From Archaeoglobaceae archaeon (GTDB taxonomy: Archaea; Halobacteriota; Archaeoglobi; Archaeoglobales; Archaeoglobaceae): a DNA stretch of 38,754 nucleotides. The DNA is taken from positions 1 to 38,754 of the forward strand of contig WAPX01000025.1 of NCBI GenBank assembly GCA_015520485.1, written 5' to 3'. Position numbers and translations under genes: made by a program. Position 1 is the stretch's first letter. Every line of letters starts with the position of its first letter. Shown here one piece after another: positions 1,110 through 37,987 of the stretch. Under the pieces are notes generated by a model that did no database searches, was not told the DNA's origin, and saw only the letters and a program-made list of their open reading frames with translations.

Positions 1110-1697
1110 ATGTCAAAACTGATGGAAATCAGAAACACGTTCCTTACAGGATTGCTGATACTGATACCTCTCGCCACAACGACTTACATCGTTTACTGGA
1201 CGTTCACGACTCTTGACAACTTCATGAGGCCGGAACTGAGCAGACTATTCGGATTTTACGTGCCGGGCATGAGTTTAATTGCACTCATAGCAGTGATATT
1301 CCTGCTTGGAGTTTTTGGAAGACTCACCTTTGGAAAAAGGCTGATAGGATTCATCGAATCAAAACTTATGAAAATACCGGTAATAAGAACCATTTATTCA
1401 GCTACAAAAGAGGCGAGCAAGGCAATTCTTGTTTCAGAGACTGAAAAGATTAAAGGAGTCGTGTTAGTTGAATATCCGAGAAAGGGTCTGTACGCAATAG
1501 GATTTACCACGGGGGGTGAAATACCGGCTGCCTGCAAGAAGACTGGAAAGAGGTTGCTCAACGTCTTCATACCTACCTCGCCAAACCCCACATCGGGGCT
1601 CGTTGTGCTCGTGCCGGAGGATGAAGTTATTTACCTGAACATGAGCGTGGAGGATGCCCTGAGAATAGTAATTTCAGGAGGATTCACGAGGGTTTAA
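1110..1697 (+). CDS. DUF502 family membrane protein
   Basis: The 195-aa protein has two hydrophobic helices in its first 75 residues (TGLLILIPLATTTYIVYW and a second around 53-70), then a soluble part with a conserved GRLTFGKRLIGFIES-type link. The soluble part carries IPVIRTIYSATKEASKAI and an FIPTSPNPTSG segment, all typical of the DUF502 family found in bacteria and archaea. The family has no established function. The start is the ATG 25 bp after a TATA-like box. It is followed by the iron-regulator operon, but that operon has its own promoter, so a functional link is not implied. Confidence 0.85.
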   Translation: MSKLMEIRNTFLTGLLILIPLATTTYIVYWTFTTLDNFMRPELSRLFGFYVPGMSLIALIAVIFLLGVFGRLTFGKRLIGFIESKLMKIPVIRTIYSATKEASKAILVSETEKIKGVVLVEYPRKGLYAIGFTTGGEIPAACKKTGKRLLNVFIPTSPNPTSGLVVLVPEDEVIYLNMSVEDALRIVISGGFTRV

Positions 1698-1710
1698 ATT
1701 TGAAAAAAAC

Positions 1711-1751
1711 TTAGGTATACCGAAAGTATTATATAATTTAGGCAAGCCTAA
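1711..1751 (+). promoter_or_regulatory. feoA-dtxR promoter with two DtxR-like operators flanking the TATA box
   Basis: TTAGGTATACCGAA (1711-1724) and TTAGGCAAGCCTAA (1738-1751) are inverted repeats of the TTAGG(N)CCTAA type bound by DtxR/IdeR-family metalloregulators. The second has perfect 6-bp arms and the first has one mismatch. They are centred 27 bp apart on either side of the TATA-like ATTATATAATT (1728-1738). A repressor on these sites would block TBP/TFB. The expected transcript start coincides with the feoA GTG at 1758, so the mRNA is probably leaderless. Confidence 0.7.
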
Positions 1752-1757
1752 TTCAGT

Positions 1758-1991
1758 GTGAGCGAGCCGTTATCAACTCTTAAAAGTGGCGAAAGAGGTG
1801 TTGTTAAAGCGATACTCGGAGGAGCTGGAGCGCACAGAAACCTTATGGACCTCGGTATAGTCGTTGGCAAGGAGATAAAAGTCGTGAAAAACTCTGGAGG
1901 AGCAGTTCTCGTCGCTGTTAACGGAACGAAGCTTGTTGTTGGTAGAGGTTTGGCCATGAAAGTTCTCGTGGACAGGAGTGGCGAAAAATGA
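1758..1991 (+). CDS. feoA: FeoA-family SH3-like iron transport protein
   Basis: The 77-aa protein begins MSEPLSTLKSGERGVVKAI and carries the FeoA signature GAGAHRNLMDLGIVVGKEI followed by an SH3-like beta core ending in GRGLAMKVLV. FeoA is a small cytoplasmic partner of the ferrous iron transporter FeoB. No feoB follows; the next gene is the repressor, overlapping by an ATGA. The start is GTG, about 25 bp after the TATA box. Regulation by the downstream DtxR-type protein through the two operator-like repeats is likely. This is either an orphan FeoA serving a FeoB encoded elsewhere, or a detached SH3-like domain working with the repressor, which itself lacks an SH3 domain. Confidence 0.85.
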   Translation: MSEPLSTLKSGERGVVKAILGGAGAHRNLMDLGIVVGKEIKVVKNSGGAVLVAVNGTKLVVGRGLAMKVLVDRSGEK

Positions 1992-2449
1992 TATCCGAGG
2001 ATATGAAGCTCACAAGAAGAACTGAAGATTATTTAGAAGCAATATACTACTTAAGTGGGAGAAAAGGATACACGAGGGTAAAGGAGATTGCCGAACATCT
2101 CGGGGTTAAACCGGCAAGCGTTTCGGAGATGCTCTCCAAGCTATCTGACAAGGGTTTTATTGTGTACGAAAAGAGGTTGTTTGTATCCCTGACTCCAGAG
2201 GGGAAAAGAATAGCAGAATGCGTTAGAGAGAGGAGGGAAATTCTCGTAAAGTTTCTTGTAACGCTCGGAGTTCCCAGAAGTATAGCTGAGGAGGACGCAT
2301 GCATCATGGAACACGTTCTTCACAAAGAAACGGTAACACAGTTAAAGAAGTTCGTGAAGTTTGTTGAGGAATCTCCCGCAGACCCGATGTGGTTGAACCA
2401 CTTCAGGGAGTACTGCAGGAGTGGCGTGCATCCCTGTCTCAGAAGTTAA
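1988..2449 (+). CDS. DtxR/MntR-family metal-dependent transcriptional repressor
   Basis: The 153-aa protein has an N-terminal winged helix (YTRVKEIAEHLGVKPASVSE, residues 28-47) and a metal-binding dimerisation domain, without the C-terminal SH3 domain. Asp14 and Glu17 in TEDYLEAIY match the MntR metal ligands. Cys105, Glu108 and His109 in ACIMEH match the iron-type DtxR/IdeR ligands. The His expected in the MntR-type RHELL segment appears to be Arg83. Two extra Cys (143, 150) lie near the C-terminus. It overlaps feoA by 4 nt, so it is translated with it and probably represses its own operon in the presence of Fe(II). The start at 1988 is chosen for the overlap; an internal ATG lies at 2003. 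Confidence 0.88.
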   Translation: MISEDMKLTRRTEDYLEAIYYLSGRKGYTRVKEIAEHLGVKPASVSEMLSKLSDKGFIVYEKRLFVSLTPEGKRIAECVRERREILVKFLVTLGVPRSIAEEDACIMEHVLHKETVTQLKKFVKFVEESPADPMWLNHFREYCRSGVHPCLRS

Positions 2450-2503
2450 AATAAGCATATAAATGCATCAAAAAATAAATACCGGTAATAAACAAATTCC
2501 AAT

Positions 2504-3010
2504 TTAAACTATTCTGCATCCAAGCATTTCTAAGTGTTTCAGAGCGAACTTCTCGTTTTCCTCGCTTGTTCCGGCTGTACAGTCTTTAAGCACGCTGGTA
2601 GTATAGCCATGCTGTAACGCATCAACTGCAGTATGCATAACGCACACGTCTGTTGCAACTCCAGCAATGGTTATCTCTTCAGCGCCGATCTCCCTCAGCA
2701 AAAGCGGTAGATCCGTCATTAGAAAAGCCGAATACCTCCTTTTCTTTACGAAGTAATCAGGCTCTGGCAGTTTGTCAATAACTTCTGCTCCCCAGCTACC
2801 CTCCAGGCAGTGCTCCGGCCAGAGTTTAAATTCAGTATCCTGTTTTCTGTGCCAGTCCTGTGTGTAAATTACAAACTTTCCCGCTTTCTTAGCCCCTTCA
2901 ACTGCTTTTACAACGTTATCCACTATGTTTCTGCTCCGTTCGAGAAAAAGGCTCCCCTCCTCTCTGCAAAAATCGTTCTGCATGTCCACAACCAAAAGTA
3001 CGTGAGACAT
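2504..3010 (-). CDS. Isochorismatase-family hydrolase, probable nicotinamidase
   Basis: The 168-aa cysteine hydrolase has the family triad: Asp9 (VVDMQNDF), a Lys at 89/90 (VKKRRYSAF) and Cys123 (GVATDVCVMHT). The nicotinamidase-type metal ligands are visible as Asp52 and His54 (TQDWH) and His67 (WPEHCLEGSWGAE). Nicotinamidases deamidate nicotinamide to nicotinic acid in the NAD salvage pathway. The length is normal for an archaeal PncA. A TATA-like ACTTAAACT near 3035 is about 25 bp before the ATG, so the transcript may be leaderless. Related isochorismatase-fold amidases cannot be fully excluded. Confidence 0.8.
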   Translation of the reverse strand: MSHVLLVVDMQNDFCREEGSLFLERSRNIVDNVVKAVEGAKKAGKFVIYTQDWHRKQDTEFKLWPEHCLEGSWGAEVIDKLPEPDYFVKKRRYSAFLMTDLPLLLREIGAEEITIAGVATDVCVMHTAVDALQHGYTTSVLKDCTAGTSEENEKFALKHLEMLGCRIV

Positions 3011-3100
3011 ACCACTACTCAGTCTGGACGACTTAAACTTTCTGGGCCGATAGCTCGTTGGGCAATCGGTCTGATTCTGCTGTTTAAAGTTTTTAAACTG

Positions 3101-3679
3101 CTACTCAAGCACGGCGTGCCTCCTTTCAAGGTCTTTTTCTGTAAGGTTTTTAATGCTCATCAGCTCAGCAATCAAGCCGTCGAGGAATATCAGTGCTGTG
3201 AGTTCGAACATGGTTCCAAGAGGGGCTATACTGCTGAGAGCTTCATCTCTCTGGTGCTTGTTCTTTCCGTTCAGCAGCACGACTATGTCACTCATCTTTG
3301 CTAAGGTGGAGTTTTCGTTCTGGGTTATTGCAGCTAACGTTGACCCTATCTCTTCCTTGGCTTTTCTGCTGATGTTGACGACCGACGTCGTTTCTCCTGA
3401 ACCAGAAATTGTTATGAGCAAATCTTCTTCACCTATTCTTGGAGTTACCGTTTCTCCGACAACGTAAACGTCATAGCCAAGGTGCATGAGCCTCATGGCA
3501 AACGCTCTCGCCACGAACCCGCTCCTTCCTGCACCCATGACAAAGATTTTCCTCGCTCTCTCTATTGCGTCCATGAATTCCGCTACCTGCCTCATGTCAA
3601 TGGACTTCTTCAGGTTCTCAATCTGGTCTGAGATTACGTCAAGGAACTTCAACAGATTAGCCCCCACAAGTTGCTGCAT
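3101..3679 (-). CDS. hxlB: 6-phospho-3-hexuloisomerase (SIS domain)
   Basis: The SIS-domain protein shows KIFVMGAGRSGFVARAFAMR, then ISGSGETTSVV and a C-terminal TMFELTALIFLDGLIAELM block, as in PHI enzymes. PHI interconverts 3-hexulose-6-phosphate and fructose-6-phosphate. With hexulose-6-phosphate synthase it supplies pentose phosphates in archaea that lack the oxidative pentose pathway. I place the start at ATG 3679 (192 aa) because GAGGTG lies 6 nt upstream and the length then fits the family. The frame is open further upstream to 3832, but that part is not PHI-like. An AAATTTAAATT TATA-like run lies near 3755-3770. The synthase partner is not in the window. Confidence 0.87.
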   Translation of the reverse strand: MQQLVGANLLKFLDVISDQIENLKKSIDMRQVAEFMDAIERARKIFVMGAGRSGFVARAFAMRLMHLGYDVYVVGETVTPRIGEEDLLITISGSGETTSVVNISRKAKEEIGSTLAAITQNENSTLAKMSDIVVLLNGKNKHQRDEALSSIAPLGTMFELTALIFLDGLIAELMSIKNLTEKDLERRHAVLE

Positions 3680-3885
3680 AACCCGCACCTCTCCGCCGGC
3701 TCTCCCGTTACAGCGGAATACACACTTTTTCATCCTCAGTTTTTGAGCATACCAATTTAAATTTAAGCTTTTCTGATTGCAGAAGATTAAAAAACCCTGA
3801 AACATGTTCTGAGCTTTAAATACTGAAAACAAAAACAGACAGCAGGTAAGAAGAAATTAAATAGGAAAAGAACGAAATTACCAGC

Positions 3886-4683
3886 ATGGAAATTACCGAA
3901 TTTGGTAAAAATTCAGAAGTCCTTTACGAGGAGGTTGAATTCGACGGCAAAAAAGCGGCGTACATAACCCTGAACAGGCCCGAGAAGAGAAATGCTCTCT
4001 CTTTCGAAATGCTCAACGCCCTCTGCGATTCCCTGGATGAAGCAAACAGACCAGAAGTCAGGGCTGTTGTCATTAAAGGTGCTGGAAGCTGTTTTTCAGC
4101 GGGACATGACCTGAAAGAGGTAGCGGAGGGTGATGAAACGTTTGTGAGGTCGATATTTGAAAACTGCTACAGGGTTATGAGGAAGATTAGGCAGATACCA
4201 AAACCCGTCATAGCTCAGGTTCACGGTTACGCTTTGGCTGCCGGCTGTCAGCTCGTTGCCGCCTGTGACATGGCTTTGGCTGCCGAAAATGCCAGGTTCT
4301 CCTTACCGGGAGTTAAAATAGGGCTGTTCTGCACGACACCTCTCGCAGTTGTCAGCAGAGTTATTGGAAGAAAAAAGGCTTTTGAGATGGCCTTTACCGG
4401 GGAAATGATAGACGCATTTGAGGCTGAGAAAATCGGGCTCGTGAACAGGGTTGTGGAAGATGACAAACTTGAAGAAGAAGTTAAAAAACTCGTCGGGAAA
4501 CTTTTGAATTACAGCAGGGACGTAATGGAGAAGGGAAAGGAATTCTTCTACAGACAGTACTGCATGAACGAGTTTGAGGCGTTACTATACGGAATAGACG
4601 TAATAGTTGAGATGAGCAAGAGTGAAGCTGCAAAAGAGGGGCTTTCAGCTTTTCTGGAGAAGAGAGAAGCCAGACGGGATTAA
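3886..4683 (+). CDS. Crotonase-fold (enoyl-CoA hydratase/isomerase family) protein, ECHDC3-like
   Basis: The 265-aa protein has the full crotonase fold: LNRPEKRNALS (29-39), the CoA/oxyanion-hole segment FSAGHDLKEV (70-79) and ALAAGCQLVAACD (116-128). The residues aligned with the two catalytic glutamates of rat enoyl-CoA hydratase (E144, E164) are Gln122 and Gly142, so a normal hydratase reaction is unlikely. The block from AAGCQL to GLFCTTP and FEMAFTGE closely resembles eukaryotic ECHDC3, which shows the same changes. The start is ATG with a TATA-like ATTAAATAG about 27 bp upstream. It stands alone, with no beta-oxidation genes adjacent. Confidence 0.85.
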   Translation: MEITEFGKNSEVLYEEVEFDGKKAAYITLNRPEKRNALSFEMLNALCDSLDEANRPEVRAVVIKGAGSCFSAGHDLKEVAEGDETFVRSIFENCYRVMRKIRQIPKPVIAQVHGYALAAGCQLVAACDMALAAENARFSLPGVKIGLFCTTPLAVVSRVIGRKKAFEMAFTGEMIDAFEAEKIGLVNRVVEDDKLEEEVKKLVGKLLNYSRDVMEKGKEFFYRQYCMNEFEALLYGIDVIVEMSKSEAAKEGLSAFLEKREARRD

Positions 4684-4698
4684 TTGATCGCTTTATGA

Positions 4699-5358
4699 TT
4701 ATTTTAAAAGTTCCCTCTTCATCAGCTCTATTCCCTCCAGCATCTGTTCAACATCGTCCTCCTTTACCTCACAACCGAACTCATCCGAAACTCTCCTCAG
4801 CATATCCACATCGTAGCACGCTGTGTAAAACTTCGCCATCTCCTCCCCATCAAGCCTCTTTCCAGAACTGTAAAGTCCGAGAACGAGCTCCATGAAGACG
4901 TCATTCATTCTGTTGTATATCTCCGCTCCCTGATCCTCTATCCATTCTTTTACGCTCCACTCCTTCTGCTGCCTGTGACCTTCGCAGAAGTCCTCGTAAA
5001 CGATGTGGTAGTACTCCTCCTCGGGACTCCTCATTCTGACGAGCGGGTAGAGCCTGCAGGAAGCAGGTCTGTCTGAGTAAACGCTGCAACCCTTCTCGGT
5101 AACGAACGGACAGGCGTCGTTTTCAGGCTTCAGCGTAACAACGGGCAATCCCGTCGCAGCACCAACGTGCCACTCGGTGTACTTTTCAAGAAATTCCGTT
5201 GAGCTCATACCCAGACAGTTCTTCAGCCTGACTATGTCGTAGGGCATGAGAATCAGGGTTAAACTCCTGCAGCACATGTTGAAGCAGGAAAGTCCGGGGT
5301 GGCACGAAAACCTGAAAGTATCTTCTAACCCGAGTCTCCTTTCGTTGTCTATGAGCAT
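4699..5358 (-). CDS. YkgJ-family Cys-cluster protein (putative Zn/Fe-binding)
   Basis: The 219-aa protein has the YkgJ/UPF0153-type cysteine pattern: Cys19, Cys25, Cys29, Cys30 in the N-terminal part, then Cys83 (ACPFV), Cys91 (GCSVY), Cys101 (RPASCRLYPL) and Cys125. The family is thought to bind zinc or an iron-sulfur cluster; its function is not established. The C-terminal 80 residues are helical and acidic with no motif I recognise. The ATG is about 25 bp from a TATA-like TTTATTAAA on the minus strand (5379-5389), suggesting a leaderless transcript. It converges with the crotonase-like gene, leaving 15 nt between stops. A second, smaller member lies at 34369-34848. Confidence 0.8.
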   Translation of the reverse strand: MLIDNERRLGLEDTFRFSCHPGLSCFNMCCRSLTLILMPYDIVRLKNCLGMSSTEFLEKYTEWHVGAATGLPVVTLKPENDACPFVTEKGCSVYSDRPASCRLYPLVRMRSPEEEYYHIVYEDFCEGHRQQKEWSVKEWIEDQGAEIYNRMNDVFMELVLGLYSSGKRLDGEEMAKFYTACYDVDMLRRVSDEFGCEVKEDDVEQMLEGIELMKRELLK

Positions 5359-34368: not shown

Positions 34369-34848
34369 TCAGAGCACGGGATTGTAGCAGGGATTTATTT
34401 CTCTGCAGGTTATTCTTTCGACGTTTCTCCTCACACCTGTTACGAGTTCCACTGCTTCTCTCACCTTCATAGCTATGTCCGGGCTTTCCACAGGCTCTCC
34501 TGACAAAACAACGTTTGGACAGTCAGTTGAAACGTACACGTAGTAAACGTCATCCAGCTCGTAGAGAGCCAGCCCGGCATCTTTTGCAGGTCTTTTACGA
34601 ACCAGAAAAGGAAATACCTTGCACGAAAGGGGCTTCATTTCTCCCTGCAGAGTACAGAGATTTCCCCTCTGAAACGGGCATGAGCCGTTAACTTTCTTCA
34701 AGTAGTACCTTCCCACCCTCTCTTCTACGAATCCAGTGCCTCTCAGTTTCAGGTATTCGTAAAACGTTAACTTAGGTTTGAATTTTCTGCAGCACTCCCC
34801 ACATGCTGTACAGTGCCATGAAGCCACTCTCCTCCACGGCACGTACAT
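34369..34848 (-). CDS. YkgJ-family Cys-cluster protein (small)
   Basis: The 159-aa protein has the N-terminal cluster HCTACGECCRKF (Cys13, 16, 19, 20), then Cys57 (GSCPFQ), Cys65 (NLCTLQGEMKPLSC) and Cys76 (SCKVFPF), the full YkgJ pattern for a zinc or iron-sulfur site. Its biochemical role is unknown. ATG 34848 lies about 25 bp after a TATA-like CTTTAATTC, so it is probably separately transcribed. It lies 106 nt downstream of the membrane protein of the peptide/radical SAM locus and could be an accessory, but nothing in the sequence proves a link. Confidence 0.8.
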   Translation of the reverse strand: MYVPWRRVASWHCTACGECCRKFKPKLTFYEYLKLRGTGFVEERVGRYYLKKVNGSCPFQRGNLCTLQGEMKPLSCKVFPFLVRKRPAKDAGLALYELDDVYYVYVSTDCPNVVLSGEPVESPDIAMKVREAVELVTGVRRNVERITCREINPCYNPVL

Positions 34849-34957
34849 CACTGAAAGTTAGGGGAAGTGAATTAAAGTCTTTTGAGGATTTTATATATTG
34901 TTAGTACAAAAATATAAAATAGCGAGTAACGTAATGAAGTAATACAGACCAGAATAA

Positions 34958-35506
34958 CTAAAATATCGGATGTGTTACCAGATACCTTACAACCCTTTTA
35001 GCTGCGACGTCTCCAGCGTAGCCTGAAACAAAGGCTAAAATGCCGAGAACGACTGCTGCCTCCGGGGAAATTTTAACTATGCCTGCGTAAAGCGCTGCTG
35101 CCCAGTTCAGCAATATGCACGCCAAGTTACCTACACCACCGTTTACGTATTCCGTCAGCACTCCAAGCAGCAAAAATGAGAAGAAACCGGCCACGCTGAA
35201 CCAGTACGGTTCTACAATACCATACCACGGGCTGACGAACAGGCAAAAAGATACTGACAGCAGGGCTGTGGCAATTCCGTATCCCCTTCCGCAAAACCTG
35301 TACGGGAGGGATATCCAGAAAACTGTTAAAAACCCGAGAACCACTAAGTTTTTGAAAGGTGCTTTTAGAGGTAAAATCGTTTCGAGAAAAGGTTTCAGGT
35401 TCAGGTACATCAGCAGTGTAAAGATTATGTAGGCAGAGATAATCGTTATCAGCATCCTCTCAACAGGTCCAAGAGATTCACCAGAAACACTTTTTACATA
35501 TTTCAT
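34958..35506 (-). CDS. Polytopic membrane protein next to radical SAM enzyme
   Basis: The 182-aa protein has about six hydrophobic helices, near residues 18-36, 53-70, 77-93, 101-120, 124-144 and 150-165, with short loops and a basic C-terminus. It resembles small transporter or integral-membrane processing proteins, but I recognise no family. Its ATG lies inside the 3' end of the radical SAM gene (29-nt overlap in another frame), so the two are translated together. An ATG at 35455 is an alternative start. In this position it could export or protect against the modified peptide. Confidence 0.75.
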   Translation of the reverse strand: MKYVKSVSGESLGPVERMLITIISAYIIFTLLMYLNLKPFLETILPLKAPFKNLVVLGFLTVFWISLPYRFCGRGYGIATALLSVSFCLFVSPWYGIVEPYWFSVAGFFSFLLLGVLTEYVNGGVGNLACILLNWAAALYAGIVKISPEAAVVLGILAFVSGYAGDVAAKRVVRYLVTHPIF

Positions 35507-36305
35507 GTTTTCTCATCCCCGAAACGAATTTTACATGCCTTTTTAGCATGGTTTCGTAATCTGTCCTCGCGTCTCCGAGGTATTCCTCACTCAGATAAAC
35601 GCAGGAACACTGCATGCACTCCCAAGTAACAAACATCGTGTAAAGTGCAATTCTGCAAGGCTTCAGGTGCCTTGCTGGAAGATACACCTTTTTTCCACCA
35701 ATTTTCTTAACCTCCTTGAAGAGTTCTTTCTCCTCCTTCTTTCCTATGTACTTTACATCCGGATCGACCTTGTAAACGTTGAACAGCCTGTGCAGAACTA
35801 TACCATCAACGCCCATCCCGGCAAAAGTCCTGACGAGTTCAGGTATTTCCAGATAGTTGTCTCTGAACACAGTTATGTCAACGAAAATCACCGGTTTTTC
35901 ACTCTTTCGCTCTTTTCTTTCGTTTAAAAGCAGTTCAAGGTTGTTTAAAGCCTTTTCCCTTCCGTCAAAGGTGTAGATACCAAAAGAGATTTCGTCGAGT
36001 TTGCTGCTGAAGATCTCTTCAACGCATCTGTCCACCATAAACCCGTTTGTCCCCATACTGGCTTTTACGTTCAGGCTCTTCACGTATTCTACGAGTTTAA
36101 AGATGTCCGGATGCAGCAAAGGCTCCCCCCATCCGTGTAAGCAAACTTCTTTGAAGCTCGAAAGCGGTAATTTCCTGAACTCCTCGAAATTTATGTAACC
36201 CACAGGCCTTTCAAGGTATCTCCTCATGCAGGGTCTGCAGTTAAGAAAACAGTCGTTTGTTGATTCCACCTGCAGTATTTCCGGCTTTATCAGCTTTGAG
36301 AGCAA
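35478..36305 (-). CDS. Radical SAM enzyme with SPASM-like C-terminal cysteines
   Basis: The 275-aa protein has the radical SAM cluster C19-FLN-C23-RP-C26 and the SAM-binding GWGEPLLHP (58-66), followed by a TIM-barrel pattern (ASMGTNGFM and others). The last 60 residues hold six Cys (217, 230, 233, 235, 270, 273) spaced like a SPASM/twitch domain that binds auxiliary 4Fe-4S clusters. Such enzymes commonly modify peptides. The TTG start has CGGGGG 6 nt upstream. It has its own TATA box and a palindrome near its transcript start. It lies 88 nt downstream of a small Cys-containing peptide gene on the same strand. Confidence 0.85.
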   Translation of the reverse strand: MLSKLIKPEILQVESTNDCFLNCRPCMRRYLERPVGYINFEEFRKLPLSSFKEVCLHGWGEPLLHPDIFKLVEYVKSLNVKASMGTNGFMVDRCVEEIFSSKLDEISFGIYTFDGREKALNNLELLLNERKERKSEKPVIFVDITVFRDNYLEIPELVRTFAGMGVDGIVLHRLFNVYKVDPDVKYIGKKEEKELFKEVKKIGGKKVYLPARHLKPCRIALYTMFVTWECMQCSCVYLSEEYLGDARTDYETMLKRHVKFVSGMRKHEICKKCFW

Positions 36306-36324
36306 TACAATCCCCCGGACGTTA

Positions 36325-36360
36325 ACAGTTTAACTGTACGCTTAAACATTTTATATAAAT
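36325..36360 (-). promoter_or_regulatory. Promoter of the radical SAM gene with palindrome
   Basis: On the minus strand ATTTATATAA (36351-36360) is the TATA box. ACAGTTTAACTGT (36325-36337), with perfect 6-bp arms around one T, covers the expected transcript start near 36330, the position of a repressor operator. The core AGTTTA is shared with the palindrome at 36641-36657. Confidence 0.45.
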
Positions 36361-36393
36361 CTAATATTAAAAATAAAATTTTTTCTGTAAAAA

Positions 36394-36567
36394 TTACTTA
36401 CCAAATTTTGTAAGCGTCCTCAAAAGCTTTCCCACGCCACCCTTAAAGCAGAGCAAGGCGGCACTCACAACTCCGCCAGCGCCCATCAAGTGACTAACCA
36501 TGTACGCCTGAAACGCATTTACAGCAACTACCTGATGCAGGGCTGTTACAGATGCTGGTGCACACAT
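36394..36567 (-). CDS. Small hydrophobic Cys peptide A (57 aa), candidate modified-peptide precursor
   Basis: Starting at ATG 36567, 6 nt after GGAGGT, the product begins MCAPASVTALHQVVAV. It has a hydrophobic region AYMVSHLMGAGGVVSAALLC and a basic tail FKGGVGKLLRTLTKFGK. Cys2 and Cys40 are its only cysteines. Peptide B, encoded divergently at 36685, aligns without gaps in the hydrophobic block and has the same MC-x-P start. The frame extends to an ATG at 36585 that lies upstream of the ribosome-binding site and is unlikely to be the start. The radical SAM gene follows on the same strand. I do not recognise a family. Confidence 0.65.
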   Translation of the reverse strand: MCAPASVTALHQVVAVNAFQAYMVSHLMGAGGVVSAALLCFKGGVGKLLRTLTKFGK

Positions 36568-36684
36568 CTTCCTACCTCCTGACACCCAGTCCAGTTAACT
36601 TTTGAGTTGCTGGGTATTTATAATTTTGCATCTTGTGCGTAAAGTTTATTAAACTTTCGTGAAATCGTATTCACGGTGGTTAAC
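36568..36684. promoter_or_regulatory. Divergent promoter region of peptides A and B with 17-bp palindrome
   Basis: For A (minus strand) the TATA-like TTATAAAT lies at 36616-36623 and GGAGGT at 36574-36579. For B (plus strand) GTTTATTAAAC lies at 36644-36654, and GGTGG sits 5 nt before the GTG. AAAGTTTATTAAACTTT (36641-36657) is palindromic except for its central base. It overlaps the B TATA box, so one regulator could control both genes. Confidence 0.5.
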
Positions 36685-36828
36685 GTGTGCACCCCTGTTT
36701 ACGTTACTGTAAAGGCAGCATCAACAATGGCACCGATAGTTAGCTATGTCGTCGGAGCTGTTGTTCTCGGAGTGGGATCGGCTCTCTGCTTCGTGAAAGC
36801 TTTAAAGGCAAGGATCGCTCCAAGCTGA
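36685..36828 (+). CDS. Small hydrophobic Cys peptide B (47 aa), candidate modified-peptide precursor
   Basis: From GTG 36685 the product begins MCTPVYVTVKAASTM, continues APIVSYVVGAVVLGVGSALC and ends FVKALKARIAPS. Cys2 and Cys35 match peptide A's Cys2 and Cys40. The shared pattern is MC-x-P-x-x-VT, then A-x-x-VS-x-x-x-GA and LCF, followed by a basic tail. This similarity across a divergent pair, and the ribosome-binding site, argue that both are real genes. One predicted membrane or amphipathic helix covers residues 16-38. Its function is unknown; a bacteriocin-like, signalling or membrane-accessory role is possible. Confidence 0.6.
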   Translation: MCTPVYVTVKAASTMAPIVSYVVGAVVLGVGSALCFVKALKARIAPS

Positions 36829-36853: not shown

Positions 36854-37522
36854 TTACCCGCTGCAGGCTTCCAGAGTTCTCACGAGCTCTTCCCAAACTT
36901 CTTTTTTGAGGTAATCCCTATCCGTGTTGGAAAAATAGTTCTCCTCGCACTCAACCTCAAATTCCGGTACGAATTCATCAACGTCCACTCTGCTTACGAT
37001 TTTCCGGTATCCGGTATTGGGAAATGCGAGGCAGACGACCGAATCAAATACCCTGTTTCTCCTGTACCACTCTTCAACGACTTCGGACAGTTTATCCCAG
37101 ACTCTTTCAGCAACATCTTCTCTCCACTTGTAACCGTACTTCTCTATCCAAGGAAAGAAGGGTGCATCGTAAATCAGGTTTATAGTCTTATTGCCTCTCC
37201 TCCACTTAAAACTCCAGAACTCTCTTGGCTCGAGAGCTAAGGGCTCAGAGACCGAGACCGTGTAAACGTCGTACTTTTTCTCGAGCTCAATTAGTCTTCT
37301 GTGAAACTCATCTCTCGGGGGGTCGTAGGGTTTTCTGGGCGTGCAAGGCACGAACAGCAAAATTCTGGTTTTCTTTGCTCTGTGTTCTTTGCTTATAAAA
37401 TTGAGCCACTCTCTAACGATTCTGTTGCTTTCCACGGCTCTCAAAACGTCAAGTGGAGAGGGGAAAAACAGTTCCGGGTTTATATCTGGGTTTAACTTTT
37501 TTGCGTCCTCAATCGTTATCAA
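36854..37522 (-). CDS. DUF5591-like protein (archaeosine synthase-related)
   Basis: The roughly 222-aa protein has ILLFVPCTPRKPYDPPRDEF, resembling the PC-x-x-KPYS-x-S motif of the DUF5591 domain in archaeosine synthases, and a later CLAFPNTGYRKIV segment. In full-length archaeosine synthase this domain is joined to a PUA domain that binds tRNA; here it stands alone. That makes a separate subunit or a different amide-transfer reaction possible. TTG 37522 is preferred as start, with GGGTG 6 nt upstream; a GTG at 37531 lies on that site. It converges with peptide B, 25 nt between stops. Confidence 0.6.
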   Translation of the reverse strand: MITIEDAKKLNPDINPELFFPSPLDVLRAVESNRIVREWLNFISKEHRAKKTRILLFVPCTPRKPYDPPRDEFHRRLIELEKKYDVYTVSVSEPLALEPREFWSFKWRRGNKTINLIYDAPFFPWIEKYGYKWREDVAERVWDKLSEVVEEWYRRNRVFDSVVCLAFPNTGYRKIVSRVDVDEFVPEFEVECEENYFSNTDRDYLKKEVWEELVRTLEACSG

Positions 37523-37561
37523 GCAATTCACCCGCTTTTTGTTTGTCGTTTATTCTGTTGC

Positions 37562-37987
37562 TCAACGTTTTAACCTTTTCACGGTACCGTCAACTTTCTC
37601 TGCAAGCTCTCTGACGTCATTTCCCCTGACAATCGTAGCCGGTACCTCTATCATCAGGTTCACTTCCTCGTAGGGGGAAAAACACCTGTGATCAGTCCTC
37701 ACACCTATTATCGGTTTTCCTCTTGCAAAGGCGTATCCAAGTTCAAATGCAACGCCGCTGTCCACGTCAATTCCGTCGAGAATCGCGACGACAACATCGC
37801 TACCTTCAAGTCCTTCAAGATCCATGGAAAAAATCTTTTTCTTATCCTCTTCGCTCTCGGAGTTGAGCAAAGGAAGCTCCTGAGCCAGAAACACTTCGTA
37901 TCCTCTTTTCCTCAACTCCTCCGCGAGTTTTGAGTTGAACTCCCTTTCAGCTGTGGAGAATATGGGTGCTGCGAGAAAGACCTTCAT
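37562..37987 (-). CDS. Nucleoside 2-deoxyribosyltransferase-family protein
   Basis: The 141-aa protein begins KVFLAAPIFSTAEREFNSKL and has IFSMDLEGLEGSDVVVAILDG and DSGVAFELGYAFARGKPIIG, with the catalytic Glu in the AFELGYA motif. This is the Nuc_deoxyrib_tr fold, which moves deoxyribose between bases or hydrolyses nucleotides such as dCMP/dGMP. The exact substrate cannot be told. The ATG is about 25 bp from a TATA-like ATTAATTTA. It is 39 nt upstream of the DUF5591-like gene on the same strand and may be transcribed with it. Confidence 0.85.
   Translation of the reverse strand: MKVFLAAPIFSTAEREFNSKLAEELRKRGYEVFLAQELPLLNSESEEDKKKIFSMDLEGLEGSDVVVAILDGIDVDSGVAFELGYAFARGKPIIGVRTDHRCFSPYEEVNLMIEVPATIVRGNDVRELAEKVDGTVKRLKR

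Follow-up and report, generated by a model that had tools for sequence, protein, structure and literature searches.

Linkage of a radical SAM enzyme subfamily to short peptides with an N-terminal MC-x-P motif in archaea and bacteria

The closest described counterparts of the locus studied here are the radical SAM RiPP systems (sactipeptides, ranthipeptides and epipeptides), in which an enzyme with an auxiliary cluster, of the fold found in SkfB, CteB and SuiB, is encoded beside small peptides. Our locus shares this arrangement and fold; however, leader and core, RRE, exporter and protease are all missing from it, and its peptide is a predicted membrane anchor conserved at residues 1-8. The anaerobic sulfatase-maturating enzymes likewise combine a radical SAM enzyme with a Cys-x-Pro target motif, whereas our enzyme conserves four auxiliary Cys, in place of a SPASM set with two clusters, and its candidate target is an N-terminal membrane peptide without Arg at +4; the peptides have S, T, A or Y at that residue and do not match the sulfatase target motif C/S-x-P-x-R. 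BtrN has a single auxiliary cluster with four-Cys ligation (PMC9012708), a twitch type that the four conserved Cys of our enzyme, known here from sequence alone, resemble.

Among the NCBIfam models, the tungsten cofactor oxidoreductase radical SAM maturase TIGR04317 is the best match of the enzyme (103-119 bits), yet these scores are far under its 380-bit cut-off. The membrane protein of the locus is like the YkoE/ABC_cobalt (PF09819) ECF S-components in its fold (5edl) and by profile homology, although it misses the Pfam cut-off and an ECF module is adjacent only in some loci. A partner protein encoded in many loci has the metal-ligand residues of the FmdE family (PF02663), but is exported and longer. 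What is new is a widespread variant of the known pairing of a peptide with a radical SAM enzyme, one that lacks the leader and RRE features; no description of this system was found in the open-licence literature on FmdE/radical SAM, on ANME/RiPP and on radical SAM/TPR/small peptides.

The cassette in the window

The window is the whole stretch of DNA analysed, 38,754 nucleotides of contig WAPX01000025.1 from an Archaeoglobaceae archaeon. A check of its sequence and ORFs found all four ORFs of the cassette in place, including the two small divergent ORFs with matching MC-x-P ends described in an earlier note made from the sequence alone. Peptide A (36394-36567, reverse strand, 57 aa, ATG start) begins MCAPASVTALHQ and has an MC-x-P N-terminus, a single hydrophobic segment and a basic C-terminus; its full sequence is MCAPASVTALHQVVAVNAFQAYMVSHLMGAGGVVSAALLCFKGGVGKLLRTLTKFGK. 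Peptide B (36685-36828, forward strand, 47 aa) begins CTPVYVTVKAAS, is divergent from A and has the same motif and layout, with the full sequence MCTPVYVTVKAASTMAPIVSYVVGAVVLGVGSALCFVKALKARIAPS; it starts with GTG here versus ATG in its four close relatives. The intergenic region shared by A and B (36568-36684, assigned to neither strand) holds, as read from its letters, putative Shine-Dalgarno sequences of peptide A (GGAGGT, 36574-36579) and peptide B (GGTGGT, 36675-36680) and a TATA-like TATTTATAAT at 36615-36624. The radical SAM enzyme (35478-36305, reverse strand, 275 aa, TTG start) and the membrane protein (34958-35506, reverse strand, 182 aa) have overlapping genes, as had been noted, the 3' end of the former lying within the latter at 35478-35506.

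Orthologous A/B pairs with the same layout were found in four relatives. Comparison of these close relatives gave a pN/pS of 0.34 for A, 0.26 for B and 0.14 for the enzyme, values which indicate that both peptides are under purifying selection. A search of the window's own genome (1.57 Mb) with a peptide HMM returned A (E 8.3e-15) and B (E 2.0e-11) and no other match. Judged by such conservation, peptides A and B, the enzyme and the membrane protein form a cassette and not a chance arrangement.

Other genes flank these four in the window. A YkgJ-like CxxCxxCC protein is encoded directly downstream of the membrane gene (34369-34851); it was rejected as a part of the system, adjoining the cassette only here and in genome G219. 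A DUF5591 protein related to part of the archaeosine synthase ArcS (36854-37531) is adjoined by a nucleoside deoxyribosyltransferase-like gene (37562-37987).

Linkage and spread of enzyme and peptides

We scanned 84,980 species genomes with an alignment of the enzyme and obtained 68 loci, from which L109-L111 were left out as weak and outside the family, giving 65 family loci. The loci were found by the enzyme search, so that the link to the peptide was not built in. A small membrane ORF starting with Met-Cys, or the motif fused to a TPR protein, was present in 64 of the 65 loci; the sole exception (L063) has a contig that stops 47 bp past the enzyme. A motif ORF lay within -600/+700 bp of the enzyme in 57 of the 65 loci, and the 74 motif ORFs in these intervals compare with 0.1 expected in Markov-1 sequence, a density about 46 times that of the farther flanks. 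The motif ORFs of L061 and L071 lie further downstream, in L101 and L103 the motif takes the forms MCTT and MCTA, and L108, of the Methanoculleus chikugoensis type, has the peptide MCIPVILP. In two Clostridia (L092 and L107) the motif MCVPISV starts a TPR protein and no separate peptide was found at either locus.

The earlier note had taken retention of the enzyme without the peptide as grounds for giving up its reading. A survey of 394 genomes of the phylum, with the core enzyme defined by an E below 1e-90, showed that the peptide is present in each of the 32 genomes that have the core enzyme, that none has the core enzyme only and that two have the peptide only. One of these two is incomplete and has the peptide beside the membrane gene, the enzyme being missing at that locus (L202); in the other the peptide is at a contig end. 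Weaker enzyme homologues in this survey span E 1e-74 to 1e-89. Two of them, of the Methanoculleus type (L199 and L201), have the order membrane gene, membrane gene, peptide, enzyme; the profile missed their peptide, which reads MC(I/V)P(V/I)I. No small MC peptide was found near the weaker or outlying homologues L197, L198 and L200, nor did such an ORF occur at 18 loci that encode the closest radical SAM enzymes outside the family. L197 and L198, which belong to one genome, encode near their outlying enzymes proteins of 540-576 aa starting MCGP(I/V)VYPPVITS (1542-3161 and 1536-3266, respectively), without a Pfam family; these large proteins possibly carry the N-terminal motif of the peptides.

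The genome scan showed that the enzyme family is spread over several archaeal and bacterial phyla, with ANME-1, sulfate-reducer, Dehalococcoidia and hyperthermophilic archaeal genomes among the carriers, and a system limited to the Archaeoglobales was rejected on this ground. The suggestion of an undescribed archaeal modified-peptide system thus kept its first part, as the pairing is undescribed, and lost its restriction to archaea. The peptides of L053 and L054 are identical and that of L055 is a near copy, although the three genomes are named Micrarchaeota, Baldrarchaeota and Archaeoglobi. Some names of metagenome-assembled genomes among the carriers are therefore probably mis-binned, which calls for caution on the claimed spread.

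The family loci yielded 78 distinct peptides of 45-76 aa with the consensus M1-C2, A/T/V, P4, V/I, S/T/A/Y, V, T/A/S. Cys2 is the only invariant residue besides Met1, an invariance that is partly by construction, the M-C start having been demanded by the ORF search pattern. P4 is nearly constant and is missing from L101 and L103; because of these two relatives and of the Ala at position 6 in 13 of the 78 peptides, no fixed crosslink acceptor can be named. Two Cys per peptide had been reported, which is true of A and B; however, Cys2 is the sole Cys in 50 of the 78 peptides and the second Cys ('LCF') is restricted to close relatives of the window peptides, so that a conserved two-Cys bridge was rejected. 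Bacterial peptides have an additional GCxGxC stretch. The hydrophobic stretch begins near residue 19 and the C-side is the more positive one in 77 of the 78 peptides (mean +3.4), from which the positive-inside rule predicts membrane-anchored peptides with N-out, C-in topology. Conservation is confined to residues 1-8, at the extreme N-terminus and not in the helix, and only the helix and a basic tail follow, so that the peptides do not have the layout of a precursor with leader and core, as the earlier note had remarked.

The enzyme is a radical SAM protein (Pfam PF04055) with CxxxCxxC at residues 19-26. Six C-terminal Cys had been counted, correctly for the window protein, but alignments showed that four are conserved in the family (C217, C235, C270 and C273, the last in at least 90%). 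The four Cys suggest a 'twitch' pattern and not the full SPASM set, so that of the previous label, radical SAM/SPASM-like, the first half stands and the second needs this amendment; a radical SAM core with an auxiliary domain of the SPASM/twitch kind is present, and the relative in L073 matches SPASM PF13186. The AF2 model of the enzyme (pLDDT 94.8) has BlsE, SkfB, CteB, viperin, PqqE and SuiB as PDB fold neighbours. An N-terminal RRE was ruled out because the first cluster Cys is already at residue 19, and no conserved cluster of neighbours corresponding to a PqqD-like RRE partner was found at the family loci; without an RRE or a leader/core layout, the term RiPP-like applies in a loose sense.

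Scores against TIGR04317 were 101.9-118.8 bits in the family and 103 for the window enzyme. In a tree with a TIGR04317 member and other paralogues, the peptide-linked enzymes formed one clade (SH-aLRT 98), and the bona fide member L025, from a related archaeon (452 bits), fell outside it. Membership of the tungsten-maturase family was rejected on the basis of the low score and the separate clade, and the clustering with a known non-peptide family that had been named as a possible objection was not seen. Neither peptide A nor B has a Pfam or NCBIfam model, and the enzyme subfamily is likewise named by neither library.

Membrane protein, partner genes and metals

The AF2 model of the membrane protein (pLDDT 91.6) has about six long helices, the number expected from the earlier reading. 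Its only sensible PDB fold match is the ECF S-component 5edl (prob 0.97, TM 0.53, but E 0.33). Comparison of a profile of 42 members with PF09819 proteins gave an hhalign probability of 96.9% (E 1.5e-10), versus at most 1.1% for reversed or block-shuffled controls. The PF09819 gathering score was not reached in Pfam, where only weak matches came from 2 of the 42 members (the best with E 0.66), and a sequence-only PDB search returned no match. CbiM, CbiQ, ABC-3 and FecCD were rejected as homologues, using small control alignments. In L185, L187 and L188 a PF09819 protein is followed by an ORF with the nucleotide-binding motif GxSGSGKS. Profile and model together point to a remote homologue of the S-components of ECF uptake systems and not to an exporter of the RiPP type.

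Analysis of neighbour clusters showed a TPR protein gene in 25 family loci and a gene for an exported FmdE-like protein in about 36. The TPR protein is taken to be extracytoplasmic. Its gene alternates three times with the peptide in L071, and in the genome of the window it is on another contig (C41), 81% identical to the cassette-adjacent copy in L044. The FmdE-like protein carries a signal sequence, aligns to 2glz and has H164-x-H166-x-C168 and C202 as invariant residues. FmdE structures bind Zn/Ni, the H-x-H-x-C and later Cys of the FmdE-like protein correspond to their ligands, and most FmdE genes adjoin metal transporters (PMC2954224). An FmdE-like partner in the window's genome was rejected, as a search there gave no match.

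Genes of metal-type transport (CbiM/CbiQ/ABC, ZnuA/ABC-3, TonB receptors, FecCD and DUF4198) were seen near 12 loci (L062, L066, L069, L078, L080, L082, L088, L091, L092, L098, L104 and L107), a raw neighbourhood count from which a metal link of the cassette may be read; among these genes, TonB receptors and DUF4198 do no more than hint at metals. CbiQ/ABC genes adjoin only L062, L069 and L098 among the family loci. No metal gene is adjacent to the window's own locus, the CbiM/CbiQ/ABC cluster of that genome being on contig C20.

The TPR protein of L107 (6797-7993) begins (MMA)MCVPISVTTQE, and its equivalent in L092 (about 3786-4961) is split over two ORFs; at both loci it is preceded by ZnuA/ABC-3 genes and followed by genes for methyltransferase and FAD-oxidoreductase, a group that looks like a biosynthetic cluster. 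In L105 a short ORF (2780-2887) starts MCVPVAALL and ends GKSIPIPMMYQILGK, which matches the C-terminal end of the L099 TPR protein; a deletion has apparently left this remnant, in which the motif is joined to the tail of the TPR protein.

Proposed mechanism and its alternatives

We give about even chances to a leaderless membrane-anchored modified-peptide system with an S-component-like partner that would serve metal uptake or handling. Its starting material is seen in the sequence, namely two paralogous peptides of 47-57 aa with an N-terminal MC-x-P-(V/I/A)-(S/T/Y)-V-T and a hydrophobic helix. The near-exclusive linkage suggests that the twitch-type enzyme acts on the N-terminal motif, and Cys2 would be the most likely site, since it is the sole invariant residue besides Met1; oxidation or a thioether link are examples of what could be formed. 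The finished peptide would be embedded in the membrane, its N-terminal Cys facing out, next to the S-component-like protein and together with the TPR protein or, in other lineages, the exported FmdE-like protein with its metal-ligand residues. Judging from the neighbours, a transition metal or metal complex would then be captured or passed on for uptake.

We consider it probable that the enzyme has the peptide, or its motif, as substrate. The fusion of motif and TPR protein in Clostridia without a separate peptide argues for the pairing of enzyme and motif; as this fusion has no obvious membrane segment, display on the outside would not be universal. The peptide without enzyme in L202 and the enzyme homologue without a nearby MC peptide in L200 are counterpoints to the mechanism.

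The peptides could instead remain unmodified and act as small subunits in an ECF-like transporter, comparable to CbiN/NikN, and the enzyme would synthesise the cofactor that is transported or modify a different protein. The membrane protein is homologous to S-components, the single-helix peptides are of fitting size and CbiM/CbiQ/ABC operons adjoin three loci; we nevertheless consider this unlikely, as conservation is at the extreme N-terminus and not in the helix, the peptide tracks the enzyme more closely than does the membrane gene (present in 46 family loci, some loci being cut by contig ends), and the motif also starts TPR proteins without a helix.

Oxidation of Cys2 of the C-x-P to formylglycine, as by an anaerobic sulfatase maturase, would place an aldehyde near the N-terminus of the membrane peptide. 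The peptides have C-x-P in common with the sulfatase CxPxR motif (PMC11500405), the auxiliary set of the enzyme counts four Cys, as does that of the two-electron oxidase BtrN (PMC9012708), and the anSME structure 4k36 appears at rank 49 of its fold matches. The Arg at +4 is, however, missing from the peptides, Pro4 from L101 and L103, the auxiliary Cys are fewer than in SPASM enzymes and no anSME model is among the best family matches of the enzyme in NCBIfam, which makes this explanation quite improbable. A secreted RiPP of the classical type, with an antimicrobial or signalling role, whose parts A and B are crosslinked by the enzyme and then cut and exported, would fit the small peptide genes adjoining the enzyme and the similar fold of SkfB and CteB, which mature sactipeptides, but is very improbable given that no leader, RRE, exporter or dedicated protease was seen at the loci, that helix and basic tail predict retention in the membrane, that the N-terminal motif is kept across phyla, unlike in diversifying toxins, and that it is sometimes fused to a TPR protein.

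The modified-peptide reading may tentatively be carried further, to a new class of cofactor made by radical SAM chemistry, in which the modified N-terminal Cys of a membrane peptide, exposed outside, would be a ligand of a metal (Ni/Co-type) or a redox group, with hand-over by the FmdE-like or TPR protein to the S-component-like permease; it would be common to anaerobic archaea and bacteria, including ANME-1 and sulfate-reducer genomes assembled from metagenomes. In ANME-1, sulfate reducers, Dehalococcoidia and hyperthermophilic archaea, key enzymes are believed to be limited by the supply of metals. If the enzyme does modify the peptides, this would be a widespread post-translational modification system outside the curated libraries, of a kind that tools based on leader or RRE would miss. 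The N-terminal MC-x-P motif makes such systems simple to search for and is a target open to direct tests, and a step up to a new class would be possible if a metal or cofactor role were shown.
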